Source: Pirellula sp. SH-Sr6A (GTDB lineage Bacteria > Planctomycetota > Planctomycetia > Pirellulales > Pirellulaceae). Taken from it: DNA of 64,000 nucleotides. The stretch is from assembly GCF_001610875.1 (NCBI RefSeq), contig NZ_CP011272.1:849988-913987 (forward strand), read 5' to 3'. Below the pieces are notes generated by a model. The model was not told where the DNA came from. It saw only the letters and a program-made list of their open reading frames with translations, and searched no databases. Positions 15,363-55,700 of the stretch are shown here, one piece after another. The translations under genes and the position numbers were made by a program. Numbering within the stretch: the first letter of the stretch is position 1; the number at the start of each line of letters is the position of its first letter.

Positions 15363-15530
15363 TTGCTACTTGCTACTTGCTACTTGCTACTTGCTACTTG
15401 CTACTTGCTACTTGCTACTTGCTTCTCTCTTCTCTCTTCTCTCTTCTCTCTTCTCTCTTCTCGCTTCTCGCTTCTCGCTTCTCGCTTCTCGCTTCTCGCT
15501 TCTCGCTACTCGCTACTCCCTTCTCGCCTA
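15356..15530. repeat. 7-bp tandem array 2 (25 units)
   Basis: Twenty-five uninterrupted heptamers: nine TTGCTAC, one TTGCTTC, five TCTCTTC, six TCGCTTC, two TCGCTAC, then TCCCTTC and TCGCCTA. The final unit supplies the CTA that is the TAG stop of the minus-strand pseudopilin gene. Because seven is not a multiple of three, TAG recurs in all three minus-strand frames. Confidence 0.9.
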
Positions 15531-38768: not shown

Positions 38769-38790
38769 GCACTACCGGAGTCTACGCGAA

Positions 38791-39816
38791 ATGACCAAGA
38801 TCAATGCCCTTTCGTTCGGACGCACCGATAAGGGCAAAGTACGGACGGAGAATCAGGACCAATTCTTTATTGCCGATCTCTCACGATCCATGCGAGTGCA
38901 AACCAATTCGCTGGATATGGATCGATATTCGCGATTGCACGGTGGGGCATTAGGACATTTGTTCCTTGTCGCCGATGGTATGGGGGGGCATCGAGGGGGG
39001 AGGGAGGCAAGCCAATTAGCGATTCAGTACTTTATCACCTCCATCCTCAATAGCATGCGATGGATCGTGAGGATTGATGCCGGAGCGGAAGATCGGTTTC
39101 TCGACGATCTACAACGTTTGCTTTCCAACGCGCACAAGACACTGCAAACTTATTCAGCTCAAGAGCAGGAACTCAAGGGAATGGGGACAACGCTCACCAT
39201 GAGTTATGTTTCATGGCCACGCATGATCGTGGTCCACGCAGGAGATACACGCTGTTATGTAATGCGGAAAGGTGAGTTGCGATTGATTACCCGCGATCAC
39301 ACCGTTGCAAATCAATTGATTCGTTCAGGACAGCTTTCTCCCGAAGCAGAAGATCGATCGCCCTGGGCAAACGTTCTCGTGAATGCTTTGGGAGCCGGGG
39401 CATCAGATGTCACGGCGGACATCTACAAGGTCGACTTGGAAATCGGAGATCGGCTGATGATGTGCAGTGATGGGTTGAACAAACATTTGAAGGAGGACGA
39501 GATCAGAGAGATTCTCATGCAACAGACGTCGGTAGAGGATGCAACCAATGTGCTAGTCCATCGCGCGATCGAGGAGGGTGGGACAGACAACGTCACCGTT
39601 ATTGTCTCGGATTTTATTGGAGAATCAGAAGAGAGTCGCATGCCCATCTGGCTATCGCCACGCACGGCTGAGCAATCGTTATTCGAAGCCCCCGTACCGG
39701 ACGAAGAACAAGACACGAATGTGGACGAGCCTCTTCCCAAAGAAACAACTTCTCCATCTGGCGGAACGGGTGGTTCGAAAGTCACCACCGACGACACTCC
39801 AACCCTGGACTACTAG
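38791..39816 (+). CDS. PP2C-family protein serine/threonine phosphatase
   Basis: 341 residues from the ATG at 38791 (GGAG upstream). The Mn/Mg-dependent motifs of bacterial PP2C are complete: RTENQDQF (about 18-25), FLVADGMGGH, GMGTTLTMSYV, VVHAGDTRCYV, CSDGLNKHL and GGTDNVTVIV near residue 272. A disordered Thr/Glu-rich tail (about 290-341) follows the catalytic domain. It dephosphorylates Ser/Thr proteins and would oppose a Hanks-type kinase such as the tubulin-like fusion kinase encoded at 44256-47708; that pairing is inference. Its stop codon TAG (39814-39816) is part of the CTAG target duplication of the adjacent IS5-family element, so the insertion left the coding region intact. Confidence 0.93.
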   Translation: MTKINALSFGRTDKGKVRTENQDQFFIADLSRSMRVQTNSLDMDRYSRLHGGALGHLFLVADGMGGHRGGREASQLAIQYFITSILNSMRWIVRIDAGAEDRFLDDLQRLLSNAHKTLQTYSAQEQELKGMGTTLTMSYVSWPRMIVVHAGDTRCYVMRKGELRLITRDHTVANQLIRSGQLSPEAEDRSPWANVLVNALGAGASDVTADIYKVDLEIGDRLMMCSDGLNKHLKEDEIREILMQQTSVEDATNVLVHRAIEEGGTDNVTVIVSDFIGESEESRMPIWLSPRTAEQSLFEAPVPDEEQDTNVDEPLPKETTSPSGGTGGSKVTTDDTPTLDY

Positions 39817-40752
39817 GCTCTGTTTGAAAACTGGTGTTTTCGTAACTTTGCGAATTTGCGATAATCGACGGATCGCCAATCAAGGAGGATACGATGGCAC
39901 GTCACAGATTAACCGATTTGCAATGGGAATGCATCGAGGAACTGTTTCCGTCTCCGAAGACAACGGGGCGGCCTCCTACGAACTACCGCTTAGCGTTTGA
40001 TGCCATTCTTTGGATTCTGCGCACCGGATCGCCTTGGCGCGATCTCCCTGAAGAATTTGGGAAGTGGAGAACTATCTACGGCCTCTACGATAAATGGAAC
40101 GGTGATGGAACCCTTGACGCTGTTCTGAATAAGCTTCGTTCAGCTCGCATTGATGATGGTGCAATCGATAGTGATCTATGGTGTGTCGATGGGAGCGTCA
40201 TCCGTGCCCATCGATGTGCTTCTGGCGGTGGAAAAAGGGGGCGCCAGACGAGCCAGCTGATCATGCACTAGGCCGTTCGCGAGGCGGATATTCAACCAAA
40301 ATCCATCTTCTCGTGGATGGCATGGGCAATCCTCTGGCATTCACCATTACGGGAGGGCAAGCTCATGAGACCACAGCACTGCTCGAGGTCCTCGAGAAGG
40401 CCGACAACGATCTTCATGACAGCGAAGGTCGCCCGGTTGCTTGGCCAGTGAATCTTGCAGGAGATAAAGGTTATCGAGCCGAATGGATCGACGAGACGCT
40501 CATCGATCTTGGAATCAATCCGATCATCCCGTCGAAGTCGAATGAAGATCGCGACGCACGAACGGCACAATTCGACGGGGATTGTTATCGACGCCGGAAT
40601 ATTGTCGAACGCTCCATAGGTTGGCTCAAAGAGTGTCGACGCGTCTTTTCGCGATTCGAGAAGACCGCCATTAACTACGCTGGGATGATTAAAATGGCGA
40701 TGATCGAACGATTCCTCCGAATGATGTGTAGTTAACAGTTTTCAAACAGAGC
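39817..40752 (+). mobile_element. IS5-family insertion sequence (936 bp)
   Basis: Perfect 17-bp terminal inverted repeats GCTCTGTTTGAAAACTG (39817-39833) and complement (40736-40752) bound two overlapping transposase frames. CTAG is repeated directly at both ends (39813-39816 and 40753-40756), a 4-bp target duplication. The layout fits the two-frame subgroup of IS5 (IS427-like) elements. The intact ends and unblemished reading frames suggest a recent insertion. Confidence 0.92.
39894..40735 (+). CDS. IS5-family DDE transposase made by -1 frameshift
   Basis: Frame A (39894-40271) has a GGAGG ribosome site and encodes the helix-turn-helix-like start HRLTDLQWECIEELF and the first catalytic Asp in WCVDGSVIRAH. 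Frame B (open 40178-40735, -1 relative) continues with NLAGDKGYRAEW, the second Asp, and RRNIVERSIGWLKECRRVFSRFEK, the catalytic Glu in the classical Y-(2)-R-(3)-E-(6)-K region. The overlap carries the homopolymeric run A5G5 near 40232, a plausible slippery site, so the full enzyme of about 280 residues would be a fusion product. The alternative, a disabling indel, is less likely since this organisation is normal for the subgroup. Confidence 0.88.
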
Positions 40753-40756
40753 CTAG

Positions 40757-41232
40757 CCTGCGTCGTAGAACTCGTTGCCGACCAAAGTCAACGATCAACC
40801 AGTTATCAGGTAAGGTCATTGATCTACTCGTTACCAAACAAGTCCATCGGTCTTCGGGTTGCTAAGTGAGGTGCTCGAATAACCTATTGCTAGGCAAATC
40901 CCTTCATGATTATCTACCGTAATCGGTACGCTCCTGCATCGCCCAACTCATCCGCCCCCCAACCGGGGACACTCACCAACACTGGGGACACTCACCCCAA
41001 ACTGGGGACACTCACCAGGGGTGCCAAACTGGGGACACTCACCAGGGGTGGGGAGTGGCCCCCCGAAGGTGGGGGCGAGAGGGGGTGGTTCGAGGGGAAT
41101 GGGGGCCGAGGGGCGGTCAAAGACGGGTTTTTGGACCGTTTGACTCTCGAGGCGCGCAGCGGCGAACCCAGTGCCGCTCCAAGGGTCACTCTCAAAGAAG
41201 AAGATGCTCGCGGCCTGTACGGCTACAAGCTC
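40757..41232. other. 476-bp noncoding region between IS5 element and RAYT gene
   Basis: Contains the degenerate GGGGACACTCACC repeats (40965-41055) and a very G-rich stretch (41056-41130). No gene seen. Confidence 0.4.
40965..41055 (+). repeat. Degenerate GGGGACACTCACC repeats, 3' side of RAYT
   Basis: Four copies of GGGGACACTCACC begin at 40965, 40984, 41004 and 41031, with spacings of 19, 20 and 27 bp. They have the same orientation and core as the regular 19-bp array at 42505-42903 on the other side of the transposase gene. Confidence 0.85.
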
Positions 41233-42339
41233 TTAAGAAGGTCGCTGGAATCGCGGACAGTAGATCTGCCGCTGGGTGACCAGCGTTCGAGCCTCCTTCA
41301 TACTGCGCACACTTCCAGCCGCCAATGAGAACATTCGACTGAAATGGGTCGTGTAGTCGATCCAACGCTCGGGATCCAATCCCAACCGCTCCAACACCGG
41401 AGGCACCTCCTCGGGTGTAAACCCTTTCTTGCCTTCCCGGATAATCCTCGCCGTCGCATCCAATAGCTGGATATAGTTCATCGATGACAACGGTACCACG
41501 CCCTTGTCACTGCAACGCTTCTTCGTCTTGCTCGGTTTGCTCCCCTGGCTTCCTCTCTCATCGATCAGCTCTATCGGGGCTAAATACGCGTCTGGTAACA
41601 GACGCTGTGGCAAGGCAGGATCTTCGCTGGGCGCTGGGAACTGCGGCGATTCCGTTTGAGTTCCCTCCGGGGGCGGTTCCGGCTTGGCAAGCTCCTGCTT
41701 CAGGGCTGCGATTCGCTGGGCTACCGACGTGTACTGGGATGCCTCGAGCGTCTGGGCTACCTGGGCGCGGATGGGATTCAAATCCACATAGCTCACGCAG
41801 GCCAAGATGGCTTCGTCATCGAGCAACCGCACCGCCTTGAACCGGCCATTGAAGAGACGGCCCGTCTCTTGGAGCTCCAGGTTGGCGCGCTTGGCGACTC
41901 GCTGGCAAAGGATGCGCATCCACCACGAGATATCGCTGAGCCGCAATCGGATCTCTTTCAACTTCTCGGGCTTGGTGCGGATCGCATCGAGCTCCTTTTC
42001 GTTGGGCTCCGCTGGAGTCTTGTCTTTGTTCTTCCTCTTGGGACACATCAACATCCAGCGCCTGGCCACTTCGGTATCGTCCCACTCTTGGACAATGTCG
42101 GGGCGAGACCGCAAGACCGAGTGGAAGTGGTTGCTCATGATGGCATGACCTAGGACGTCGATGCCAAAGTACTGGGCTTGCTCCTCGATCTGCTTGGTGA
42201 TCCAGAGACCGCGATGGCTGTGATCTTTGCGGGTGAGAGCATCATCGCCGAGCAAGAAGTACTTGCGAACAATGGTGGCGATGGTGTGGACCGTAGCGAC
42301 TTCGTCGGGACGGTAGATATCGGCGCGGGCGCTGCGCAT
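41233..42339 (-). CDS. Long REP-associated tyrosine (HUH) transposase
   Basis: 368 residues from the ATG at 42339, chosen for AAGGA nine bases upstream; the frame extends in sequence but without homology to 42531. Hallmarks of RAYT proteins are visible: GHAIMSNHFHSVLRSRPD carries the H-x-H (71 and 73), and ACVSYVDLNPIRAQVA matches the Tyr-bearing YVHLNPVRA block that defines the group. It is more than twice the length of E. coli TnpA-REP, with a C-terminal half of unknown fold. Such domesticated nucleases cut short hairpin or tandem repeats rather than moving themselves. It lies between two sets of GGGGACACTCAC repeats. Confidence 0.83.
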   Translation of the reverse strand: MRSARADIYRPDEVATVHTIATIVRKYFLLGDDALTRKDHSHRGLWITKQIEEQAQYFGIDVLGHAIMSNHFHSVLRSRPDIVQEWDDTEVARRWMLMCPKRKNKDKTPAEPNEKELDAIRTKPEKLKEIRLRLSDISWWMRILCQRVAKRANLELQETGRLFNGRFKAVRLLDDEAILACVSYVDLNPIRAQVAQTLEASQYTSVAQRIAALKQELAKPEPPPEGTQTESPQFPAPSEDPALPQRLLPDAYLAPIELIDERGSQGSKPSKTKKRCSDKGVVPLSSMNYIQLLDATARIIREGKKGFTPEEVPPVLERLGLDPERWIDYTTHFSRMFSLAAGSVRSMKEARTLVTQRQIYCPRFQRPS

Positions 42340-42504
42340 GATCTGAATTCCTTGGGCGAAAGGGAAAACATCGGCAAAACAAGGGACGATTCGTTCGGGT
42401 TGCCGGGCACGATCCTGTGCATAGAAGTGATTGGAGCGTCTCGAGACCCCAGATACAAGAGTGGGGAAGGGGGCGCCAAAAAGATTTTTCAGGACACCGG
42501 AAAT

Positions 42505-42903
42505 GGGGACATTCACGCGCACTAGGGACACTCACGCGTACTGGGGACACTCACGCGTACTGGGGACACTCACGCGTACTGGGGACACTCACGCGTACTG
42601 GGGACACTCACGAGGACTGGGGACACTCACGAGGACTGGGGACACTCACGAGGACTGGGGACACTCACGAGGACTGGGGACACTCACGAGGACTGGGGAC
42701 ACTCACGAGGACTGGGGACACTCACGAGGACGGGGGACACTCACGAGGACTGGGGACACTCACGAGGACTGGGGACACTCACGAGGACTGGGGACACTCA
42801 CGAGGACTGGGGACACTCACGAGGACTGGGGACACTCACGAGGACTGGGGACACTCACGAGGACTGGGGACACTCACGAGGACTGGGGACACTCGTGGGG
42901 ACT
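42505..42903 (+). repeat. 19-bp tandem repeat array, 21 units
   Basis: Twenty-one contiguous 19-bp units: five of type GGGGACACTCACGCGTACT (first two with base changes), fifteen GGGGACACTCACGAGGACT (one ends GACG), and a final variant with CGTGGGG. The array lies in the 593-bp gap (42340-42932) upstream of the RAYT start and 30 bp from the end of the UvrC-like gene. The array has no stop on the + strand, but the resulting repetitive frames are not judged genes. Confidence 0.95.
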
Positions 42904-42932
42904 GCTTTAGTTGCGATTTCTACAACCGGTTG

Positions 42933-44210
42933 CTAGGCAGCGGGTTGGGACAGGGGAGGATGAAGCCTTTTTTTGGCTTCTTGCCACGTTCGAGGGAGGC
43001 TATCGATTGCGAAGGTTTGGGAGATGTACTCGGCTAGGGGAAGTTCCATACTGGATTTCTTGTGCTGCTTCTCTTTCTGAAACCAGGAGGTGACTAGACC
43101 TAGAGTGTCATCGGGGTTTTGTACATAGGTTCCTAACTCTGGTTGCGGCTGGTTACAAATATCAAGCTTTCGCAATGTTGCATTCCACTCCTTGCTTGTG
43201 TTCGGAGGCGCCAGCGATGCAATTACACCTCCTTCTCGAATCACATACCAGACGGCTCGAGCCTGCTTCGGGTAGATCGCGTAGATGGTTGGATTGGATT
43301 CTCGCGCCCTCTGAAACTGTTTCAAACGCTTGGTGATCCAACGTATGATGCTTAGGTCTTCGCGCAATCTCGCTGCATATTCGAAATGAAGTCCCGCGGC
43401 GGCTTTTTCCATTGCATTTTGAAGCTTCGATTCCAGGTCCGATTCCCCCGTTCGAAGGAACCGCACGGCCGCCGCAACACCTTCGTCATATCCGGATTTG
43501 CTGCAGACCGGCAAACAAGGAGCTAAACAGTTTCCAAGTTCATGGCGTACACAGCCTGCACGGTGCTCTAAATCAAATAAGGAAAGCTGGTTCGAAAAGT
43601 GCATGGGCGTTTTATGGCTACAGTCTCGCAATCGAAATGTGCGGGTTAAGATCTCGATTGCACGCGACAAATGGGTTACACCGCTCAACGGACCAAGTGA
43701 GCACTTGGCGGTCGGGTCATGATATCGAGAAAGATAAAACGCTTCGGCTGGCCCTTTGCCAAGACAGAGATAAGCCTGCCGTTGTCGATTTGGCATTCCA
43801 ACTACATTGAAGCGAGGTTGCCACCGCCGAATCAAACACTGCTCTCTTAGCAACGCAGCGAATTCGCTAGGTTGGGGCTCCCAGACAATCTTGTACGCTG
43901 CTTGTGCGATCCGCCCCGACTTGTCCTCATCGTTATTGGGCAAGTAGTAGCTCATCAACCGATTGCGCAACGCTTTTGATTTACCAACATAGATTAGACG
44001 CCCCGTCGCATCCAACATTCCATAAACGCCAGGCGAACGCGGGACCCCGCTGGCAATGGCTCGCTTCATGTGCGCAAGCCTATCCTCGTGGGGAATGCGA
44101 TCGGGAGCTATTTCCGGCGGAAGCTGAATCCAACTAAGATGCGGGCGCTCGAAAGGCAGGAACGGATCCTCTCCAAAATCCTCGAAACAGTCTATCCAAA
44201 CAACATCCAT
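42933..44210 (-). CDS. UvrC-like/Cho-type GIY-YIG protein
   Basis: 425 residues. The GIY-YIG domain is at about 58-135: SPGVYGML, RLIYVGKSKALRNRL and the catalytic Glu region FAALLREQCLIRRWQPRFN. A four-Cys region (CVRHELGNCLAPCLPVC, about 230-246) followed by a UVR helix pair (LQNAMEKAAAGLHFEYAARLRED) is as in UvrC. The RNase-H-type second nuclease and HhH domains of full UvrC (about 600 residues) are missing, as in Cho; the C-terminal 130 residues are unrecognised. It may nick damaged DNA or act on other branched DNA. It has GGAGG before its ATG and starts about 45 bp after the kinase-tubulin gene, hence probably the last gene of that operon. Confidence 0.85.
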   Translation of the reverse strand: MDVVWIDCFEDFGEDPFLPFERPHLSWIQLPPEIAPDRIPHEDRLAHMKRAIASGVPRSPGVYGMLDATGRLIYVGKSKALRNRLMSYYLPNNDEDKSGRIAQAAYKIVWEPQPSEFAALLREQCLIRRWQPRFNVVGMPNRQRQAYLCLGKGPAEAFYLSRYHDPTAKCSLGPLSGVTHLSRAIEILTRTFRLRDCSHKTPMHFSNQLSLFDLEHRAGCVRHELGNCLAPCLPVCSKSGYDEGVAAAVRFLRTGESDLESKLQNAMEKAAAGLHFEYAARLREDLSIIRWITKRLKQFQRARESNPTIYAIYPKQARAVWYVIREGGVIASLAPPNTSKEWNATLRKLDICNQPQPELGTYVQNPDDTLGLVTSWFQKEKQHKKSSMELPLAEYISQTFAIDSLPRTWQEAKKRLHPPLSQPAA

Positions 44211-44255
44211 GCGATCGCCCTCCGCGGCGCATTATCGCACGGGGGCTTTGGGTGA

Positions 44256-47200
44256 TCAAGATTCCGACGCGGGATGCGCGAACGGAATCCACTCGATATC
44301 GACACGCGACAATATCCGAGGAACAAGCTGCCAAGTTTCGCTGGTCGGCATCCAAAGTTTGTCGATCAATTCTTCAACGTCGATCTGATCCCCTACCGCC
44401 ACGACATAGCTAGCTATCCTGCGATCAGTTAAATGAATGCGACTGATTTTCGCCAACTTTCCTTTGAGCTCCTCGGGCAACTGGTACCAAATCATTTCAG
44501 AAACGAAGAGATGAAGGTGGACCGATTCTCCGTAGTCAGCCAGGAAGGGGATACAAGTATCGATTTTCGCATCGAGGTCTGCATCACCTTGAATGGCTGT
44601 TGCAACCCGGGCCGAGTCCAAGGCGATCGGCCCAGTAGAAATTTCCCCCAAGAGCGTCATGGAATTGCCTTCGGACAAATCAAAGTCCGACTCACTGGGC
44701 GAGGCACCTCCACGCATTTGAGTCAAGGTGTTGGTCGCTGCTGGTTGTGCTAACGCCGTTGCTTTCGAGCGAGGGATAGGTTCATGAGTCCTGCTTTGTT
44801 GAATAATCTCCTTTTGGATTTCGATCGTTAAAGCCTCTAGCATGTCGGCGATCGACGCAGTCTCGCCATTGACCGAATGATTCGCCGGGATACCCACCAT
44901 TGCCGCTTCGATAGCTTGGCACCCACACTCTTTGACCCAAATGCGAATGACAAGATCGGCGATCGATTCGCGGCTGAGCCGGTGGATGGCATCCGATTTG
45001 TCTTGTTGGTTCTGCGACAGAAAGCTCTCGATGGAGTATCCAAAACGACGCAAACAGAAGTCTTTGGAAAAGTGAAAGAACTCGCCCTGCAGGTCCCTGC
45101 TGCACCTTGCCCAGACCTGCTGAATTCCTCGTAGTCGATCGATGAACCTTAAAAGCATCGAACCACTGAGTTGATGGAAGATCGCTTCCATTCGAACCTT
45201 TCCTTCCAGATTCATGACACTTTGGCTGCGTACGACTTGCGATTCGCTCTCACTTAACTCAACCAGTTTCGCCTCAAGCTTCTTTGCGACGGAAAAAAGC
45301 GAATGCGCATTGACTTGGAAACGCTCTTCCAGGAGCTCCATGAGCTTAGGGAATATCGACCAATTCAAGGGGACGGCGATCCATCGGCTAGTGATCCATT
45401 CGAGGAGCCTTTCCCATCGACATTCAAACAGTTGTTGCGTCGCAATTGCGGCTTCCGAAAGATCCATCCCCAACGGTTCAACCAATCGCTTGAGATGAAC
45501 TGCATCATCGAGCATGCACGCACTGGGGCGGTAATTGGATCGGAAGTCTTGAACTTGGTTTCCGATCTCGGAAGGAAAAACGGAACGCATCACGTCGCGC
45601 ACCCACGCTTGCGCATTGAAATTGCAGACGCGAAATGCGTCAGTGATAAAATACTCAATCTTCTCAAGCATTTTTGGGGACAGCAGCAGGCATTGAGGAG
45701 ACTCAGCCGCTGAGACACCTTTATCCAACGCCGAAATCCAGGACATCAACCCGTGGAGCACAGTGGTTGCGCTGGCTTTTGCTGGCTGAATGCTCAACTC
45801 AAGTGGTAATGGTGTTACCTTGATCGTACTCAGCCATGGCGGAGCATCGAGTGCACTCTGACTGCCCGATTCAAAATCCTCGCATCGCGAGGCATCGTCG
45901 ATCGGATCTGCAATTTCGATATAGCGGACAACTTGCTCCATGACCTCTGTGTTATCCGAGGGATCCCCCATCTTCCCTCCATAGAACAATCGCACGCGAT
46001 CAAAGGGTGGTTTACTACTTGGGGCGGCAGGAATCCCCGGAAGCTCCGGGTGAAGGCCACCGGTTCGAAAGTAGTGATTGACCTCGAGCAAGCAAGCGAT
46101 GGAGCATGCGGTTGCGAGATCGCCAAGAGCCGTTGGACTGGGCGATGCGCATGTAAGAAGCAACTCGCATCGAATTGGAAGTTGCATGGACTCCGCAACT
46201 TGCTGAATCATAAATCCAAGTTCGCTTACAATCGAACTACCGGTTCCCCCCATTGTCGAGGCTACCAGTTTCACTTGAACGGGAACGTCCGGTTGTGAAT
46301 CCGCAGACAGACCTTCTAGCAAGACCATGAGATGCTCGAATACTTGCGGGGCATGATCGATCAAGGCGAGCATACCCAAGGGCCTTACTCCCTCTGTCAA
46401 TTGCGATCGAGGGATGTTGTACAACCATCTGCGGCTAAGTTGAGGAAATGCATGAGTTCCCTCACGATAGTAATGTGGGCTCTTTAGTGGCGTGTGAAAG
46501 ACCTGTCGGCTTGTCAACGGTTTGAGGTTGGATCGGTCTACTAAAGGAAGGAGCGTATTCGCATCCGTGTCGAGCACGAAAAGAAGGGACTGGTCTTCCA
46601 AATCGCTCGTAATATCCGAATTGCGTTGGTTAAGAGCGGCGACCACTCCGGCGCCGATGCCGCCAACGCCAATCACCACCGTCTTTGGCCGAACGGCTGC
46701 GACCGGTTGCGATCCGGCACCCGACGCGGGTTGGGTTGAGAGCCGAATGCGGTGGCGAGTGGGTGCCGAATGATCGACAGCAGAGGACGATGGAGATCGC
46801 GTAGTAATTTTGTTGGAATTAACTCGCGGATTCCAGCCTCGAACACGTGTACTCCTTTCTTTGCTGGCGGCTTCAACATTCGATTGAACTGCCGATTCGA
46901 TCGCGTGAATTAATTCCCTGCAATCTGAAAAGCGTTGATGCGGACGCTTTGAAAGAGCCTTCGCAATCACGGGTCTCTCGGCAGGCGGAAGAGGCTCGAG
47001 AATCGGCGCTTTGTGCAAGTGTTCGTTTGCGAGTTGAGCGGTTGTTCGACCACGAAACGGGAGTGTACCGGTCAACATCTCAAAGTAAACAATGGCGAGC
47101 GAATATTGATCGCTGAACCGACCAGGACGGCCATCAAACATTTCCGGAGCCGCGTAAGTCGGCGTCAACCCGCCCATCATCGACTGGGTCATCGAGTGAA

Positions 47201-47708
47201 GGTCTTTCACCAACCCAAAATCGGCGACCTTAATTCTATCTGAGACCAAAAGCAAGTTGCCCGGTTTGACATCGAGATGTTGTAGCTCGTGCTTTTGGCA
47301 GAGGAAATCAAGTCCATCGGCCGCATCCCTCAGGTAACTCAAAAGACGGTCTCGCGCAATTCCTGCAAAGCCTCTCTCTCGATACTCCACATAGCGATCA
47401 AATAACGATCCTTGGGCCAACTCCGTAACGATGATGAGCTGCCCCTCAATGATCTCAATCCGTTCGAGTGAAAGGATGAACGGATGATTGACTTGCCGAA
47501 TGCGTTGGAGGGATTTGAGTTCTGCAACGGCACGATCCTCATGGACCGCACCATGCACGAACTTGATGGCCTTCTTCAATCCACCAGGTGCATCGGCAGC
47601 CCAGACATCGCCATATCCCCCAGATCCAATTTTCTTGGTCAATACATAGCCTGGAATCGGTTCGAATCCGGCTTGAATTCGTGTACCCACCGTACTCATG
47701 TTTGGCAC
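44256..47708 (-). CDS. Ser/Thr protein kinase fused to a tubulin/FtsZ-like domain
   Basis: 1,150 residues. The N-terminal Hanks-type kinase (about 20-270) has a glycine loop KIGSGGYGDVW, a VAIK-like Lys in KAIKFVHG, the catalytic loop HLDVKPGN (Leu replaces the usual Arg of HRD), DFGLV and APEMFDG. After a Ser/Arg-rich linker (280-340), VVIGVGGIGAGVVAALN (344-360) and VASTMGGTGSSIVSELG (482-498) match the nucleotide-binding start and the GGTGSG signature of the tubulin-like (Tubulin_2) group; the remaining 650 residues have no recognised family. No transmembrane segment. It begins 19 bp after the AAA+ ATPase gene. Proposed role: phosphorylation-controlled assembly of a cytoskeletal or defence machine; this is inference. 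Confidence 0.85.
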   Translation of the reverse strand: MPNMSTVGTRIQAGFEPIPGYVLTKKIGSGGYGDVWAADAPGGLKKAIKFVHGAVHEDRAVAELKSLQRIRQVNHPFILSLERIEIIEGQLIIVTELAQGSLFDRYVEYRERGFAGIARDRLLSYLRDAADGLDFLCQKHELQHLDVKPGNLLLVSDRIKVADFGLVKDLHSMTQSMMGGLTPTYAAPEMFDGRPGRFSDQYSLAIVYFEMLTGTLPFRGRTTAQLANEHLHKAPILEPLPPAERPVIAKALSKRPHQRFSDCRELIHAIESAVQSNVEAASKERSTRVRGWNPRVNSNKITTRSPSSSAVDHSAPTRHRIRLSTQPASGAGSQPVAAVRPKTVVIGVGGIGAGVVAALNQRNSDITSDLEDQSLLFVLDTDANTLLPLVDRSNLKPLTSRQVFHTPLKSPHYYREGTHAFPQLSRRWLYNIPRSQLTEGVRPLGMLALIDHAPQVFEHLMVLLEGLSADSQPDVPVQVKLVASTMGGTGSSIVSELGFMIQQVAESMQLPIRCELLLTCASPSPTALGDLATACSIACLLEVNHYFRTGGLHPELPGIPAAPSSKPPFDRVRLFYGGKMGDPSDNTEVMEQVVRYIEIADPIDDASRCEDFESGSQSALDAPPWLSTIKVTPLPLELSIQPAKASATTVLHGLMSWISALDKGVSAAESPQCLLLSPKMLEKIEYFITDAFRVCNFNAQAWVRDVMRSVFPSEIGNQVQDFRSNYRPSACMLDDAVHLKRLVEPLGMDLSEAAIATQQLFECRWERLLEWITSRWIAVPLNWSIFPKLMELLEERFQVNAHSLFSVAKKLEAKLVELSESESQVVRSQSVMNLEGKVRMEAIFHQLSGSMLLRFIDRLRGIQQVWARCSRDLQGEFFHFSKDFCLRRFGYSIESFLSQNQQDKSDAIHRLSRESIADLVIRIWVKECGCQAIEAAMVGIPANHSVNGETASIADMLEALTIEIQKEIIQQSRTHEPIPRSKATALAQPAATNTLTQMRGGASPSESDFDLSEGNSMTLLGEISTGPIALDSARVATAIQGDADLDAKIDTCIPFLADYGESVHLHLFVSEMIWYQLPEELKGKLAKISRIHLTDRRIASYVVAVGDQIDVEELIDKLWMPTSETWQLVPRILSRVDIEWIPFAHPASES

Positions 47709-47727
47709 TTCTCAACGATTGTATCGG

Positions 47728-49293
47728 TCAGGATGGATTGATGATTGAAGACATCGGTGACTGCATGGGTAACGCACCCATGGTTCGTTGAGTCAAGGAT
47801 GGTTGAGGAACAGGCGTCTGAAGAGAGGAAGTTGCGGGACCATTCTGTGTCATTGGTTGCACCAACGGAGGCCGTTGCTGCGCTGGTATGGAAACTTGCC
47901 CCGCCCCCAAGCCTTGCGGCGCTGGCTGCGAACGCCGGATGGCAACTGGTTGATTCCCAAAGTAATTCTTACAGGCGATCTCAAGAAAATCGCTTCGCAA
48001 TTCGATTCGTTCCTCTCGATATGCGCACAGGCATTTTATTTGATACAAGAGATCGCGTGGATGACATCGGCGCAGCGGCCTGTTCTGCCGACGATAAACT
48101 TTCATGATCAACTCTTCAACTGCCTGCGGTCTCCAAGCGATTTCGAAAGATTCGCATGCGCGACGAAAGAGTTCGGTGAACTCTTCGGGGGAAGGGTCTC
48201 CGATGTGGATCTTGAACGGAACTCGCCTCAGAAATGCCTCGTCGACCAATGACTCCGGCTGGAGATTGGTTGAAAAAAGAATGATTTGCTCAAATGGAAC
48301 ACAGATCTTCTTTCCGGTCGGTAAGTTCAAATAGTCATGGCGATTCTCAAGAGGAATGATCCAGCGATTCAATAATTCAGCAGGCTCCATGCGTTGACGA
48401 CCAAAGTCATCAATCAGCAGGCACCCACAGTTGCTTTTCATCTGAATAGGTGCTTCGCACGTATTACTTCGTGGGTCATGTCGGATCTCCAGATTATCCA
48501 TAGTCAGCTCTCCGCCGACGACGACCGTTGGACGTCGCACTCGCACCCAACGCCGGTCATGCTCTTGGTCGGTCATGATCCCAGAACTCCCGGCAAGTTG
48601 TTTCACTGGCTGATGATAGGCCGCGTCAAAGAATTTGATGATGACACCATCATCGATGACCGCGTGAGGCACCCAGACTTCTTCGCCACGGCATGCTGCT
48701 AAGCACTTTGCCAGTGTTGTTTTACCATTCCCCGGAGGTCCGTAAAGAAAGATGCCCGCATTGCTATTGATGGCCGGTCCGATGAAGTCGAGCCAAGATG
48801 GTACGTAGGTTACATGACCAAAAGACGCGATGAGCTGCTTCTTAGTGATAGGCTCGAACGTGCTTGCCTGCGCTTCGACGCTAAGTACATAGTCGAGGAG
48901 CGGGACAGGGGCAGGCCCTGTATACGAGCATACCGCTTGATACTGCAACGCTCGCTTTTGGCCTGCTTCCGTAAGGCTATAGTAGAAATCGTTGAGAGGA
49001 GCAGGTCGCGCATGTGCAATCAACTGCCGAACGCGGAGTTGCGCGAGTACTTGCTCGATTATTCGAAACGACAGACGCACGCGGTCGGTAATACCTCTCC
49101 CAGTTAGCGTGCCGACTCCAAGGAAGACTTGGAGAATAATGGATTCGAGCACCATCTCCGAAATCCCGCACTCTTCCATCGACTTCGGCTCATAGGGCCA
49201 GAATGCATCTTCGTTGAGAACAGCAGGCAAGGCATTTTGGGCCAAGGAAGCAGTGTCAGGGGTCAGTTTGGTGAGCATGCCGAGGAAACCCAT
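47728..49293 (-). CDS. AAA+ ATPase with N-terminal winged-helix-like part
   Basis: 521 residues. Walker A GPPGNGKTTLAK (about 185-196), Walker B CLLIDDFGRQ (about 302-311), sensor-1-like FEQIILFSTNLQ, arginine-finger-like RRVPFKIHIGD, and a C-terminal helical lid. Residues 40-125 (LGVGTLTGRGITDRVRLS, then LREAGQK-like YYSLTEAGQKRALQY) resemble a winged-helix DNA-binding or protein-interaction domain. The C-terminal tail (440-521) is Pro/Gln-rich and disordered. The overall layout is similar to bacterial ATPases found beside tubulin-like genes, but I could not assign a named family. First gene of the three-gene operon. Confidence 0.8.
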   Translation of the reverse strand: MGFLGMLTKLTPDTASLAQNALPAVLNEDAFWPYEPKSMEECGISEMVLESIILQVFLGVGTLTGRGITDRVRLSFRIIEQVLAQLRVRQLIAHARPAPLNDFYYSLTEAGQKRALQYQAVCSYTGPAPVPLLDYVLSVEAQASTFEPITKKQLIASFGHVTYVPSWLDFIGPAINSNAGIFLYGPPGNGKTTLAKCLAACRGEEVWVPHAVIDDGVIIKFFDAAYHQPVKQLAGSSGIMTDQEHDRRWVRVRRPTVVVGGELTMDNLEIRHDPRSNTCEAPIQMKSNCGCLLIDDFGRQRMEPAELLNRWIIPLENRHDYLNLPTGKKICVPFEQIILFSTNLQPESLVDEAFLRRVPFKIHIGDPSPEEFTELFRRACESFEIAWRPQAVEELIMKVYRRQNRPLRRCHPRDLLYQIKCLCAYREERIELRSDFLEIACKNYFGNQPVAIRRSQPAPQGLGAGQVSIPAQQRPPLVQPMTQNGPATSSLQTPVPQPSLTQRTMGALPMQSPMSSIINPS

Positions 49294-49534
49294 TCTCGCG
49301 TAATAACCGGTCTAAACCACCTAGGTGGTAAGCTCTTCGCTTTCGAATGCTCGCTCCATCGGCCAACGCGCCGCGCAACTTTGTAGGCTTCCCCAAAAAG
49401 CGAATCGGTTGATAGAAAAGTTTGCCGAAAGATCCAATATTTCCGTTGCTGCGCCATTTTGTGGTTTAGAGTTCCTCGATGCGACCTGTCAGCCCCCTGG
49501 TCGGGATGATGCAACTAATAATTCCCATGACGCC

Positions 49535-50689
49535 ATGAGCACCGATTCCTCACTCCTAGCCAGATCGATGCCGAATAATTCGATCCGCAATCTTCGCGCG
49601 GACGGCTCGTCGGTTTGGTTGCTTGAAGCAGTCGGAAAGAATTTGAGCGACACGCTCACTGTGATTTACCCGATCCCCTTCTCGATCGGACGGAAAGCAG
49701 GATGTAGTCTCCAGCTACAATCCAAAACGGTTTCTAGTCATCACGCCGATTTGACCATTCGGGACTCAATCCTCTATGTCGTAGATCGCCAGAGCACCAA
49801 CGGCACTTATGTAAACGGAAACCGTGTTACTGGAATGATCGCGTTGAAGACGGACGATATTCTTCAATTCGCGGACGTCGCATTTCGGATCCGATGCAAT
49901 GACCACGCAACCTCGTCCAACACAGTGGCGGAAGATGTTTGCGACCAAGCGCTCGCGCTAGTGCAATTCGATCGCATGATGGAAAAGAGGCTCGTGACGC
50001 CGTTCTTCCAGCCGATCGTGCATGTCGATGGCTCGGCCACCATCGGTTACGAAGTGCTCGCACGTAGCCGAATGTTTGGTCTTGAGACAAGTGCCGCGAT
50101 GTTCGGCGCAGCTGCCAAACTCAACATGGAAGTGGAACTGAGTCAGATGCTCCGGTGGGAGGGCATTCGCGAGGGACTATCCCTTCCCAAGGGGAGTCAA
50201 ATCTTCGTGAACACCCATCCCCTAGAGCTTGGACGCCCTGATCTTCTCGAGTCCATGACCAACGTTCGCAACATGACTCCAGATACCCCCATCACCTTGG
50301 AAGTGCACGAAGCAGCGATCACCAATCCGTCGCAAATGTTCGAACTACGCAGCGCGTTACGAGACCTGCAAATCCAGTTAGCCTACGATGATTTTGGTGC
50401 TGGCCAAACCCGCTTGTCGGAATTGGGGAATGCTGCCCCGGACGTGATGAAGTTTGATATGGGGCTGATTCGAGATATCGATAAAGGGCCCGTGGACCGG
50501 ATCAAAGTGCTGAAATCGCTGGTGCACGTCGTTCGGGATCTCGGCGTCACGGCATTGGCCGAAGGGATCGAAACAGAGGCTGAGGCTCTCGTCTGCAAAG
50601 AGCTTGGCTTTCAGTTGGCGCAAGGTTACTATTTTGGCCGTCCCGCCCCTCCCAATCGCTTTACAGAACCACGCCTTTCTCCGATCTAG
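49535..50689 (+). CDS. FHA domain-EAL domain protein
   Basis: 384 residues from the ATG at 49535 (no clear Shine-Dalgarno site). The FHA domain (about 45-115) shows FSIGRKAGCSLQL, SSHHADLTI and STNGTYVNG, the phosphothreonine-reading loops. The EAL domain (about 145-380) has EVLARSR (E of EVL), VNTHP, LEVHEAAI, YDDFGAGQTRL, VMKFDMGLI, LAEGIETE and QGYYFGRP, so the metal- and c-di-GMP-binding positions appear intact and the enzyme may hydrolyse c-di-GMP to pGpG. FHA would link this to a phosphoprotein, conceivably one made by the divergent kinase operon, 240 bp away. Confidence 0.88.
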   Translation: MSTDSSLLARSMPNNSIRNLRADGSSVWLLEAVGKNLSDTLTVIYPIPFSIGRKAGCSLQLQSKTVSSHHADLTIRDSILYVVDRQSTNGTYVNGNRVTGMIALKTDDILQFADVAFRIRCNDHATSSNTVAEDVCDQALALVQFDRMMEKRLVTPFFQPIVHVDGSATIGYEVLARSRMFGLETSAAMFGAAAKLNMEVELSQMLRWEGIREGLSLPKGSQIFVNTHPLELGRPDLLESMTNVRNMTPDTPITLEVHEAAITNPSQMFELRSALRDLQIQLAYDDFGAGQTRLSELGNAAPDVMKFDMGLIRDIDKGPVDRIKVLKSLVHVVRDLGVTALAEGIETEAEALVCKELGFQLAQGYYFGRPAPPNRFTEPRLSPI

Positions 50690-50753
50690 CTTGTTCTCCA
50701 CAATCGATCGCGTATCTCCGCGCGGTTGACGATTCTCCGATGCGTTTCTCTTG

Positions 50754-52031
50754 CTAGGGACCAATGGGGATTTCGAGTTCGTTTTCAAGCCAATACTTGG
50801 CGTTCTTCACAACGTCGTCTGATTCATTCCCATCGTCCATCCGGGTGAATAGGCTGCAAAGCGGATAACTAGCCGCTAATTCTGTGTCAGCTTTTGGTAT
50901 GTCCGCGACCCAACAAGGCTCGGACGAAGTGAACGGTATCTGCCAGCGCCTTTCCCACATACCCGTAATGGCTCGCTCCGTTGCTCTCCAATGTTTTGCA
51001 AGATATAGGATCTCTTTGCGCACCGGTGCATCGATTTGCAAACGTTCTCGGAAGATCAATCGTTTCTGTTCATCCCAGGAAAGGGGCTCGAGTACGTTGC
51101 CACAAACGTTGTGATGATGCCATGCGATGGAGTGTTTCCAGTTCCGATCGAGTAATTCCATCCCTGCGCTCCACCGTGGGTTGATTTCAAGAAGAACCCA
51201 GCGATCGTCGGCGGTTCGAAGGAAATCGGCGTTCCAGACGCCCAGCCAGCCCGATTCCTGTGTAACCCTTTCCGCGAAATTGTCTAATCGTTCCCATTCC
51301 TGGGGCTCCAATGCCATCGGCCCAGACGAACCTCGATAGATAAAGTCACTCCAAGGATGTGGATGAAGAGGCAACGCGTTGACACCCCCAATTGCGATAG
51401 CGCCCCTTTTCCCGCTCAGAAATGAAACACCGACTCCCTCCCCTTCGATTCGTCGCTGCAAGAGAAGACGATCGCTCGACTCCCCCGCGTCCCTTCCGCG
51501 TTCGAAACTTCGCGTCCCCACAACTGGATTGAATCGAGAGACTCCGAGCCCCCCCGCCTGCCAGTGGTCTTTGATTAGCCATGTATCATCGGTTTCCCCC
51601 TCGGTCCACGGCAGCATTTGCCCGCTCGACTTCAGCCCGGCGATCGAGTGGGTTTCGGGGAATTCCATCCCGGATTGCAGGGCCCATCGCATCCACGTTT
51701 CCCAAGATCTCATGCGCGAAAATGAAATGGAACCTCTACTGACATTTGGTGCGAGATAAATCGAGGGAAGTCGCTCGATCCCACCGGCGAAGAACACACC
51801 CCCGAACTCGCCTTCCGACCGCCAAGAAGCAATGGTTTCGGTGAGCAGCGGGCAGTTATCGAGGGAGTCGATTGAAGAATAGCGAGTCGCGATGTGCAAG
51901 GTATCCAGATCGCCGCAACAGTCGATCACCCAGGGGTCCATGCCTGAACGTCGAACGGACTGAGCCAGCGCGCGGCACGAAAACCCAACCACCAGGGCTT
52001 TCCTACTCCCGAGCTGTGCAACAGAGGCCAT
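50754..52031 (-). CDS. ATP-grasp-domain protein (H4MPT-pathway type)
   Basis: 425 residues from the internal ATG at 52031; the longer ATG at 52082 would leave only 38 bp to the divergent fae start, too little for two promoters. Blocks of an ATP-grasp fold: KALVVGFSCRALAQSVRRSGMD, a nucleotide-binding-like N-terminus, then DTWLIKDHWQAGGLGVSRF and SDRLLLQRRIEGEGVGVSFLS, DRWVLLEINPRWSAGMELLD with the Glu and Asn metal ligands. I infer from genome neighbourhood patterns that such ATP-grasp genes beside fae take part in H4MPT cofactor or C1-carrier biosynthesis. Reaction not predictable. Confidence 0.8.
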   Translation of the reverse strand: MASVAQLGSRKALVVGFSCRALAQSVRRSGMDPWVIDCCGDLDTLHIATRYSSIDSLDNCPLLTETIASWRSEGEFGGVFFAGGIERLPSIYLAPNVSRGSISFSRMRSWETWMRWALQSGMEFPETHSIAGLKSSGQMLPWTEGETDDTWLIKDHWQAGGLGVSRFNPVVGTRSFERGRDAGESSDRLLLQRRIEGEGVGVSFLSGKRGAIAIGGVNALPLHPHPWSDFIYRGSSGPMALEPQEWERLDNFAERVTQESGWLGVWNADFLRTADDRWVLLEINPRWSAGMELLDRNWKHSIAWHHHNVCGNVLEPLSWDEQKRLIFRERLQIDAPVRKEILYLAKHWRATERAITGMWERRWQIPFTSSEPCWVADIPKADTELAASYPLCSLFTRMDDGNESDDVVKNAKYWLENELEIPIGP

Positions 52032-52120
52032 TTTGACGTGGCTTTCGCCTGGCCGCCGTTTAAAATGCTCGCCGTTGTTCATTCGCTTCTTACCTAAATC
52101 TTTCCGAAGTAAACATCGAC

Positions 52121-52714
52121 ATGGCCAAGAAAAAAACTACCGCGAAACCAGCCAAAACAAAGAGCAAGGGAACCGGTCGGATCATTCTTCGAACCGGGGA
52201 GGCGCTCGTCGAAGCCGAGCCAGCTTGGTCCGCAGCCGAACCGGAAGTCATTATTGGAGAATTTGACGGTCCCGTTGGATACGCTTTCGCCAACTTGATC
52301 GGAAACCAGGTTAAAGGTCATACGAAAGTTTTCGCCATTCTCAATAGCGACGTGCAGGTGAAGCCTGCGACGATCATGGTTAGCAAGGTAACAGTCAACA
52401 ATGAGAAGTACACCAACATTCTCATGGGAACGGTGCAAGCAGCGATTGCGCACGGCGTTCTCGACGCGGTCCGAGCGGGTTCGATTCCTAAAAACAAAGC
52501 GAACGATCTTGGGATCATCGTATCGGTTTGGCTAGATCCATCGATCGTCGATGTTGATTACGATCCAAAGCTCTTGTTCCAGACGAATCGCGAAGCCACC
52601 GCCAAAGCGATTGCGAAAGCCATGAACAATGAGCCGTCTATCGATTGGCTCCTCAAGAATCAGGAGTCCGTCCCTCACTTCTTCCATCAACTCGCTCTCG
52701 ACGGAAAACTGTAG
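52121..52714 (+). CDS. fae: Formaldehyde-activating enzyme homologue
   Basis: 197 residues. The motifs RTGEALVEAE, IIGEFDGPVGYAFANLIGNQVKGHTKVFAIL, VKPATIMVSKVTVN and the C-terminal FFHQLALDGK are of the Fae family, which joins formaldehyde to tetrahydromethanopterin. A Lys/Thr-rich stretch of about 18 residues precedes the domain. In methylotroph Fae a His of the segment just before IIG is the catalytic residue; here that position reads EPEVIIG without a His (memory-based comparison). It may therefore be a Fae-like paralogue rather than a canonical enzyme. Divergent from the ATP-grasp gene. Confidence 0.87.
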   Translation: MAKKKTTAKPAKTKSKGTGRIILRTGEALVEAEPAWSAAEPEVIIGEFDGPVGYAFANLIGNQVKGHTKVFAILNSDVQVKPATIMVSKVTVNNEKYTNILMGTVQAAIAHGVLDAVRAGSIPKNKANDLGIIVSVWLDPSIVDVDYDPKLLFQTNREATAKAIAKAMNNEPSIDWLLKNQESVPHFFHQLALDGKL

Positions 52715-52749
52715 AACGAGCGATACCTTGTTTTGCTCATCGGTTGTTG

Positions 52750-55700
52750 TCAATGAGCGGTTTGTATCGAACCGTTTGCCGGATCAAGTAAAGGACGGTT
52801 TGTGGGGTCCTGTTCGCGGGGCTCCAAATCGGTCTCCCAGATGCCTTGCATTTGCTCCTTCGTGAAGGCGAGCTTGGCATAAAACTGGTAGAGAAACGGG
52901 ACCATGAGCAAGACAAGGGCGGTGGATCCTAACAATCCAAAGGCAAGACTGGTGGCCATCGGGATAAGAACCTGTGCTTGAAAGGATTTTTCCAGCAACA
53001 TCGGAAGCAATCCGGCAACCGTCGTAACACTTGTTAGAAAGACTGCGCGCAGTCGGCGCGATCCGGCCGTTATGATTGCTTCACGAACAGGCATGCCCCC
53101 GCGCACGCTCTGATTGATGAAGTCGACGAGGACGATCGAATCGTTCACTACCACTCCCGCCAGCGTCACCATTCCAAACATACTGAAAAGAGTAAGCGAT
53201 AATCCCATAAGCGCGTGACCATAAATGGCCCCCACCATTCCAAATGGAACAATGGCGAGGATGATGAGAGGTTGAAGGTAGGAATTGAATTCGAAGACCA
53301 ACAGTAAAAACATGCAGGCCATCGCTAAGACAAAACCAACCGCAAGACTACCGAAGGACTCGGCCGTCTCCTGCTGTTGACCTTCCCAACGAAATCGCAG
53401 CGATGGGTATTGCTGCAAAAGTTTCGGCATCAAGTTGTCTTGAAGCGATTTTGCAACAACCGCTGCATTGGCCACTGCGGTATCCACTTCGGCGCTTACA
53501 GTAATGGATCGCATTTGATCCAATCGATTAATCTCCGAGTAGCCTCTCGTTTTCGCGATCTTGGCTACTTCGGTGATCGGCCTTTCGATTCCATCGGCAC
53601 CTCGAATGCGGAGTTCCTGCAAATCTGCGAGCGAGCGGCGTTGCTCTGGTGGATATCTCACCATCAATTTGACTTCGTGTCTCTCACGCTGCAGACGCAT
53701 GACCTCTGCCCCGTAATACGCGCTGCGAACGGTTTCTGAAAGATCTGCGACGCTAATTCCCAGCGACTGTGCGCGATCGAGGACAGAAAACTGGAACTCA
53801 ATCTTTCCAGGCGATGAATCGTCACGAATGTCGTAGACGCCAGCAAAATTCCCGAGGGCCTCTTTCGCTGTCTCGACGGCCGCTTCCAAGGCCACCACAT
53901 CTTTGCGCGGCGCGAGAATCTTGAATTCAAGGGGTTTTCCACCTGGACCGATGTTGGCGGACTGGAAGGTCACTCTCTCAGCGCCCGGAAAGATTCCTGC
54001 TTTCTCGCGCCAACGCTGGATAAGTTCATCACTCGTGACGTTTCGATCCGTTGCATCGTGTATTTCCACTTGGACCTGCGCCACATGCGAACCGGAGACA
54101 CGATCGCCCCCACCTGGATCTCCACTGGCTGCCGATCCGACTTGCAAGTAGGTCAGTTTCACTGGACCTCGCGGTGCAGTGGGATCGGAAGGTGGTGGGG
54201 TTTTGTTGGTGCCCGCTGCATCCTCTCGCTTCGCAATCGTCTCGCTTACATCGCGAATGGCGGTCTCCATTTGGCGAGCGGCCTCTCGAGTCACCGTTAC
54301 CGGAGTGCCATCTGGATAGATGACTTGACCGATAATTGTCTTTCCATCGAGCGCTGGAAAAAACTCGAATGGCACCGCACCGGATCGGACCAGCCCGACC
54401 GCAAGCAACACTGAAGTGAAACCCATGGCGATAGGGAGTGACGGGTAAGACAAACAGATGCGCAAAAGAGGCCCATAGAATCTCTCTCCAAACCAATCTA
54501 AAAATCGATTTGCAGGTCGGCCGAACCAGCAGAATACTTTTTCGAACTGATCCACCACGCGAGACCAAACGTGCAAAATGCGTTGGACGGTCGTCTTTGG
54601 TTCACGGTGTTCGTGAGACAAGTGACCTGGTAATGCGAAGGAAGCTTCGGCAAGCGAAAACAAAAGCATAGCGATGATGGCGGCTGGCATGACTGCGATG
54701 AATTTCCCCATCACACCCGATACATAGAAGAGCGGCATGAACGCGATGATTGTGGTCGCCACGCTCGAAAAGACGCTGGGAAGAACTTCGATGGCCCCGT
54801 CGATTGCCGCCTGAAGGTTCGATTTGCCCATCATTCGGTGCGCGAAGATGTTTTCACTAATGACGATTCCGTCGTCCACGACAATTCCCACTGCCATCAG
54901 GAAGGCAAACATGGACAGCATGTTCAGGGTTGCGCCGGTGGAGTACAGGACGATCCCTGCTCCCATAAGGCTTAATGGGATTCCCATTGCGACCCAAAAG
55001 GCAAGACGCAAATCGAGGAAGACCGCCAGGAGAAGAAACACAATAAGTCCGCCCTGCAATCCGTTCTCACGAAGCATGCGAATGCGATCGCGGACATCGA
55101 CACTTTCGTCCCCCCACGCCTTCAGTGCATACCCATGAGGCGCCTCGCTTTTGGCAACAAAAGCTGTGACTTCGTCGGAAATGTTTAGCAGATCTTCGTC
55201 GCTGGTGCGGGAAATCTCGATCGTGATTGCGGGCCTACCATTGATCTCGCTGATCGCGGTGACATCATCGAATTCGTCACGAACCTTTCCAATATCCCCT
55301 ACCGTAAGAACGACGCCGTTGGATTGAGTGATCACTGGGAGTTTTGCAATCTCCTGGCCGATGTCACGTTTGTTTTTCCCTCGAAGCAATATCTCTTGGC
55401 CATCGCTTTTGATTTGGCCACTCGGAAGTTCGATATTTTCTCTTCTTAAGATTTCGGCGATACGGTCGAGTGTTAGCCCATAACTGCGCAGTGTCTCTTC
55501 CTCTATCTCAACATCGATTTGATATGGTTTGATGTTCTGCAAGTTTGCTTGTGATACAGACGGCAATTCAAGCAATCGTTCCCGCACGATTTCTGCATAG
55601 TTCCTCAATCTTGTTTCGGCGGCACCGGAACGATCGTCGGGTCCAATCACCGCAACGCGAATCGCGGGCAATCGGAATGTAATCTGTTCGACAGTAGCTT

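Follow-up and report, generated by a model that had tools for sequence, protein, structure and literature searches.

The window analysed here, a stretch of 64,000 nucleotides from the single-contig genome (6.5 Mb) of Pirellula sp. SH-Sr6A (NZ_CP011272.1, positions 849,988 to 913,987), carries three adjacent minus-strand genes, which encode a GIY-YIG nuclease, a Hanks kinase fused to a tubulin/FtsZ-like domain (the fusion) and an AAA+ ATPase, and next to them a gene for a protein with FHA and EAL domains (Table 1). The fusion, the AAA+ ATPase of a module-linked clade and the FHA-EAL protein form a recurring unit in the order Pirellulales, here termed the module; this conclusion is much safer than the mechanism which we propose for it below. 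The three minus-strand open reading frames (ORFs), separated by 45 and 19 bases, were found as stated in a preliminary description of this DNA, and the ribosome site reported for the GIY-YIG gene reads GGAGGG upstream of its ATG. That description omitted the conserved divergent FHA-EAL gene on the far side of the ATPase gene. Relatives suggest that translation of the fusion starts at an ATG four codons inside its ORF, at 47699, which would widen the gap to 28 bases, and the FHA-EAL protein probably starts at 49535, because several relatives align from residue 71. The operon status of the three genes is based on their spacing. Promoter-like sites (4 versus 5.1 in shuffled sequence) and terminator-like sites (9 versus 7.3, standard deviation 2.7) were about as frequent as in shuffled sequence, and a search with Rfam gave no match in positions 38000–53000.

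Table 1. Positions of the genes and domains of the cluster, counted from the first nucleotide of the window
Feature	Position	Strand	Basis
Hanks kinase + FtsZl1/Tubulin_2 + long helical C-terminal region, 1150 aa	44256–47708	-	Pfam Pkinase and Tubulin_2 above cut-offs; predicted fold
Kinase domain, residues 21–266	46911–47648	-	Pfam; conserved catalytic residues
Tubulin_2 match, residues 344–596	45921–46679	-	Pfam
T4-like loop GGTGSS, residues 487–492	46233–46250	-	Sequence; conserved Gly-Gly
AAA+ ATPase, winged-helix-like front, module-linked clade, 521 aa	47728–49293	-	Pfam, linkage, model, Foldseek, tree
FHA-EAL protein, divergent from the ATPase gene, eight EAL catalytic residues	49325–50689	+	Pfam, linkage, RocR alignment, residues
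GIY-YIG nuclease, similar to the N-terminal half of UvrC, 425 aa; neighbour, judged a non-member	42933–44210	-	Pfam, profiles, linkage, co-occurrence

Comparative counts refer to the following samples. The order sample comprised 146 Pirellulales genomes, with 65 fusion places in 60 genomes (cut-offs E ≤ 1e-60 for the fusion, E ≤ 1e-30 for FHA-EAL and E ≤ 1e-40 for GIY-YIG); presence in it is given below as both genes / fusion only / other gene only / neither. The genus sample comprised 27 genomes among 60 relatives searched, with GIY-YIG orthologues defined by E ≤ 1e-90. The named loci are the best 80 of 171 relatives and overlap with the order sample; neighbour counts used the 55 of the 80 whose flanks reach 4 kb or more upstream and 2.5 kb or more downstream. 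The record titles of the named loci are planctomycete with the exception of a single bin of Candidatus Nealsonbacteria (L119), which may be mis-binned, and L143, labelled Fuerstiella, groups with Planctomycetaceae in the AAA+ tree. The flank scan covered 98 proteins encoded around the module in 16 of 34 loci, and statements derived from it refer to the 25 of 137 matched families that were listed.

Among named genomes, the fusion has its closest relatives in Pirellula metagenome-assembled genomes. Its description as a Hanks kinase joined to a tubulin/FtsZ-like domain in one protein was confirmed by Pfam matches to Pkinase (PF00069; 110.2 bits, cut-off 31.7, E 1.5e-31) and Tubulin_2 (PF13809; 43.1 bits, cut-off 27), the latter placing it in the FtsZl1 family. 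The kinase residues are conserved among relatives (catalytic Lys 77/77, HLD Asp 78/78, Asn 78/78, DFG Asp 79/79), HLD replacing HRD. Of the 80 named loci, 78 have the kinase fused, and the remaining two have a contig that breaks off at the gene. The GGTGSS signature noted previously in the tubulin-like part is present, and the first Gly of this T4-like loop is kept in 81 of 81 and the second in 79 of 81 sequences; a single motif of that part served to collect the named loci, among which its conservation is by construction. An AlphaFold2 model of residues 341–1150 (mean predicted local distance difference test score, pLDDT, 81.9) shows an alpha/beta core, then a long stretch of helices and, at the end, a small alpha/beta unit. 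Its nearest solved structures are CetZ (E 1.1e-6), TubZ, tubulins and FtsZ, and a tubulin/FtsZ fold is predicted; solved structures searched with the sequence of the tubulin part yielded only weak matches, of coiled-coil type. The expectation that a planctomycete would lack FtsZ was borne out, as PF00091 (FtsZ/tubulin) has no match in the source genome while 13 of 14 control genomes match, and a canonical FtsZ was rejected. Across the phylum (246 genomes), the fusion matched at E < 1e-200 in three genomes, each from the same family as the source genome; the search scored three candidates per genome, returned mostly kinases as its other matches and tests absence outside Pirellulales weakly. The source genome encodes a second Tubulin_2/FtsZl1 protein (L066:7762-14594), which has no Pfam kinase match and adjoins an MlaD protein as well as a PKD protein that matches vWA weakly (20.6 bits, cut-off 27).

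The ATPase scores just below the cut-off of Pfam AAA (20.2 versus 21.2 bits) and has a conserved P-loop, GPPGNGKTT. Its model, built from 23 sequences (mean pLDDT 71.5), contains a disordered tail and the winged-helix-like front proposed earlier (helices 46–60, 65–72 and 76–88, strands 92–98 and 102–107, all predicted with high confidence). AAA+ structures (8p49, 4zpx, 1g8p) head the Foldseek list for this model; in the alignment listed by a sequence search against solved structures, the matches were short P-loop stretches. A tree of 94 AAA+ rows (92 different) contains a branch with 99/99 support that has the 66 linked rows, together with 7 additional copies from fusion genomes, on one side and 21 paralogue rows on the other; the root of the tree is unsure because three paralogue rows are long-branched. 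The linked AAA+ is a separate clade; a match of either AAA+ type was obtained in 111 order genomes, at least 56 of which contain the other type alone. One paralogue lies in the source genome (L067:8544-10466), two genes from a DUF4129 protein.

The linked type is found on the contig of the fusion at 46 of the 65 places, in 45 of them upstream on the same strand within 6 kb and in 21 within 500 bases. Presence in the order sample is 54/6/1/85, and the sole genome with the ATPase only (G040) has an adjoining tubulin-like protein without kinase. The earlier claim that the minus-strand genes act as a unit therefore holds for the fusion and the ATPase, which occur together in 54 of 60 fusion genomes compared with the linked type in 1 of 86 others, and fails for the GIY-YIG nuclease (see below). 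As the pairing recurs across an order, it is more than chance.

The FHA-EAL protein matches FHA (PF00498; 62.3 bits, cut-off 20.7) and EAL (PF00563; 121.1 bits, cut-off 31.3). The FHA binding residues R, S, H, N and N are kept in 75 of 75 sequences, and the EAL domain has all eight catalytic residues and aligns at these positions with RocR (3sy8), whose aligned positions we take to be its catalytic residues. Judged by domain and residues, the protein is a candidate phosphodiesterase of cyclic dimeric guanosine monophosphate (c-di-GMP). The gene lies within 8 kb of the fusion at 59 of 65 places (on the same strand, 38 times upstream and 12 times downstream; on the opposite strand, 9 times upstream), with a presence of 57/3/6/80. 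Among the 55 named loci with sufficient flanks, FHA-EAL was found in 53, AAA+ in 44, a GGDEF gene in 14 and GIY-YIG in 4. When the four domains are compared by their pairwise distances (49 loci), the correlation coefficients are 0.27–0.75 and none of 500 permutations was as high, a result which shared descent alone can produce.

The state of the EAL domain, counted in 75 non-identical FHA-EAL proteins, follows the presence of a further gene. Where AAA+ is present and a GGDEF gene is absent (52 loci), all eight catalytic residues are found in 50; of the two exceptions, L109 lacks two residues through truncation and L142 has one substitution. Where a receiver-GGDEF-CBS gene is present (22 loci), the EAL domain keeps 0–4 of the eight, and in L173, with neither AAA+ nor GGDEF gene, it keeps 2. 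The GG[DE]EF motif is absent from the best-scoring GGDEF protein per locus in 26 of 26 sequences, some genomes being counted twice; a second GGDEF gene of L058, outside these 26, reads GGEEF. These figures are sequence counts and not independent events. The close match between EAL state and GGDEF gene offers a natural experiment in the possible conversion of signalling enzymes into sensors.

The GIY-YIG gene product is a short UvrC-like nuclease, as judged from its domain (24.1 bits, cut-off 22.6) and from profile matches that span the first half of UvrC, with no match to the second half. It scores below the equivalog cut-offs of TIGR00194 (129.4 of 285.45 bits) and Cho (33.4 of 367) and below that of the UVR motif (17.8 bits, cut-off 21.5), and its residues 55–137 align with the UvrC structures 1yd6 and 1ycz. 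Orthologues are present in 27 of 27 genus genomes and the fusion in 15, and the two are adjacent in 5 of these 15 (the source genome, G026, G022, G024 and G011), which group together as a single clade of the AAA+ tree (support 100/98), where the four relatives are entered under their named contigs. In the order sample, GIY-YIG occurs in 22 genomes independently of the fusion (10/50/12/74, Fisher p 0.65), and in 9 of the 10 genomes with both the two genes are on different contigs. The nuclease is unlinked in most relatives, an outcome which the preliminary description itself had named as refuting its claim; it was rejected as a member on linkage and co-occurrence, and we judge it a neighbour in one small clade. 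A second juxtaposition, in Rubripirellula obstinata (L130:2594-3952), where a GIY-YIG relative adjoins FHA-EAL on the other flank, counts against the view that it is a mere neighbour.

The recurring unit brings together protein kinase, phosphothreonine-reading, FtsZ-like and AAA+ components and an enzyme or sensor for c-di-GMP, which leads us to propose a cytoplasmic signalling device on an FtsZ-like assembly. In this mechanism, which we consider about as likely as not, the cytoplasmic kinase would have an FtsZ-like part as its scaffold and would be read by FHA, coupled to c-di-GMP and remodelled by the AAA+ protein. The tubulin-like part would bind nucleotide and self-assemble, and assembly would gather the kinase domains, leading to phosphorylation of themselves or of partners. 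FHA would then dock on phosphothreonine and bring EAL to the assembly, where it would hydrolyse c-di-GMP locally; in sister lineages, eroded EAL and its eroded GGDEF-CBS partner would only sense c-di-GMP. Finally, the AAA+ protein would dismantle the assembly. The phospho-control suggested previously is likely, and the module may have a role in attachment, budding or membrane shape. In the most far-reaching form of this proposal, which we regard as unlikely to hold in full, an FtsZ-like polymer of bacteria without FtsZ, with its own kinase and its own AAA+ dismantler, would be marked for an FHA-EAL protein tying local c-di-GMP to the polymer; the whole would be a cytoskeletal switch, gated by c-di-GMP, that serves attachment or budding, and some lineages would have swapped the enzymatic EAL for an eroded GGDEF/EAL sensing pair.

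Several observations speak against the proposed device. No linked-type AAA+ lies on the same contig at 19 of the 65 fusion places, and in several genomes the linked AAA+ stands among other genes; where it is remote from the fusion (L068, L069, L071, L073), its neighbours gave no match to the module profiles. FHA-EAL has no match within 8 kb of the fusion at 6 of the 65 places (G422, G339, G419, G401, G348, G407), is missing in 2 of the 55 named loci (L131, L161) and occurs without the fusion in 6 genomes. The fusion itself is dispensable, since it is present in 60 of the 146 order genomes. The T7 catalytic loop was not located in its tubulin part, which is moreover the fastest-changing piece of the module, with a mean identity of 22% over 49 loci as compared with 60% for the kinase, 57% for AAA+ and 47% for FHA-EAL.

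Such divergence around a retained T4-like loop would fit a tubulin-like domain that is a nucleotide-binding switch or an oligomer platform for the kinase and forms no filament, the client of the AAA+ protein being other than the fusion. This non-polymerising scaffold, which we consider possible though on the unlikely side, agrees with the report, in the accessible part of the paper of Makarova and Koonin, that T6-H7 elements are unidentifiable in FtsZl1 and that absence of filaments is one possibility (PMC2875224), a point which again weighs against self-assembly. The predicted core, however, matches the folds of the filament-forming CetZ, TubZ and FtsZ, although a fold alone is no proof of filaments. 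An improbable explanation is a membrane-remodelling system, possibly for planctomycete endomembranes, as the same authors proposed for FtsZl1 generally (PMC2875224, accessible part). Family membership and the MlaD and weak vWA-PKD neighbours of the second Tubulin_2 protein of the source genome would fit it, but the conserved partners of the fusion are signalling proteins, and no vWA, GTPase or OmpA was among the 15 families matched by at least two of the 98 flanking proteins. Defence, one of the roles suggested earlier, was rejected, and we regard a system directed against phages or serving in other conflicts, in which the GIY-YIG nuclease would be the effector, as very improbable: the kinase matches the PADLOC families PD-T4-6 (E 1.4e-42) and mad6 (E 1.5e-41), the ATPase P-loop matches IetA (E 1.9e-9) and the separate arrangement in R. 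obstinata would speak for it, but these matches lie in a kinase domain of generic type and in a P-loop stretch of 28 residues, no whole PADLOC system set was found, the GIY-YIG protein has no PADLOC match, is unlinked in most relatives and occurs independently of the fusion, and no recurring vWA or effector genes appear among the families listed for the flanks.

Beyond the FHA-EAL gene, an ATP-grasp gene and a gene for a formaldehyde-activating enzyme (Fae) occupy 50754–52714. The ATP-grasp gene (50754–52082) was considered as an EAL partner, as the EAL part of the window protein scores best to RimA, and was rejected, being found in none of the loci L031–L063; its other neighbour is the formaldehyde-activating enzyme. 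A PP2C gene (38707–39816) was likewise rejected as an eraser phosphatase and remains a hint: among L031–L063 it stands beside the cluster only in G026 (L031), there directly after the GIY-YIG gene. In the window, an insertion sequence (39816–40753) lies between the PP2C gene and the cluster, with terminal repeats read by eye as GGCTCTGTTTGAAAACTG and a DDE transposase (PF01609) split over frames 39894–40271 and 40178–40735. Directly downstream of the GIY-YIG gene, 20.6 copies of the 19-base repeat TGGGGACACTCACGAGGAC occupy 42504–42894, and a short similar array lies at 40956–41050; the minus-strand ORF between them (41233–42531) has no Pfam match at E 0.001 and appears by eye to be REP-type transposase-like. 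A long gene run at 15528–36457, including a 2087-aa protein, resembles by eye type II secretion or type IV pilus genes.

Compared with known systems, the ATPase has its best fold matches in LonB (4zpx), BchI (1g8p) and Pyrococcus furiosus Q8U0N8 (8p49), with 13–16% identity, but lacks a protease domain and has an extra winged-helix-like front and a disordered tail; these three AAA+ proteins presumably belong to the helix-2-insert clade. The nuclease shares the GIY-YIG domain with UvrC and Cho and matches profiles over the first half of UvrC, but at 425 aa has no match to the second half of UvrC and stays below every equivalog cut-off. GAP1-N2 GTPase tubulin and MoxR-vWA ternary systems (PMC7159879) likewise combine an NTPase and a tubulin-family protein in one neighbourhood, although, in the accessible part of that paper, their tubulin versions are described from firmicutes and actinobacteria and occur with vWA genes, of which none was seen here among the families listed. 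A tubulin-like domain is reported to be the commonest partner domain of purely cytoplasmic planctomycete kinases in one survey (PMC11032199); the part of the study available describes no gene neighbourhood for it. Among the closest systems is the FtsZl1 family defined in 2010 by Makarova and Koonin, who noted an N-terminal kinase on four planctomycete members (PMC2875224, as far as accessible), a fusion mentioned again in the excerpt of PMC9871819; with this family the window protein shares the Tubulin_2 domain and the kinase fusion. A reviewer's comment printed with that paper points to a diguanylate phosphodiesterase beside FtsZl1 in Pirellula staleyi and suggests signalling. The partners vWA, GTPase and OmpA given there were not seen here among the families listed, their place being taken by FHA-EAL and the linked AAA+, and the accessible text does not describe order-wide linkage, the FHA domain or the EAL/GGDEF pattern. 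Among the papers listed by our literature search, judged mostly by their titles, none dealt with the FHA-EAL/AAA+/fusion set, its FHA domain and linked AAA+ clade, its linkage across the order or the EAL pattern, parts of which may be shown in Additional files 5 and 6 of PMC2875224. The combination described earlier as uncommon is partly in print already, namely the kinase-tubulin fusion (PMC2875224, PMC11032199). With its kinase, FtsZ-like, AAA+ and c-di-GMP components, the module gives a concrete recurring gene set with which the cell organisation of FtsZ-less planctomycetes and the job of FtsZl1 become testable.

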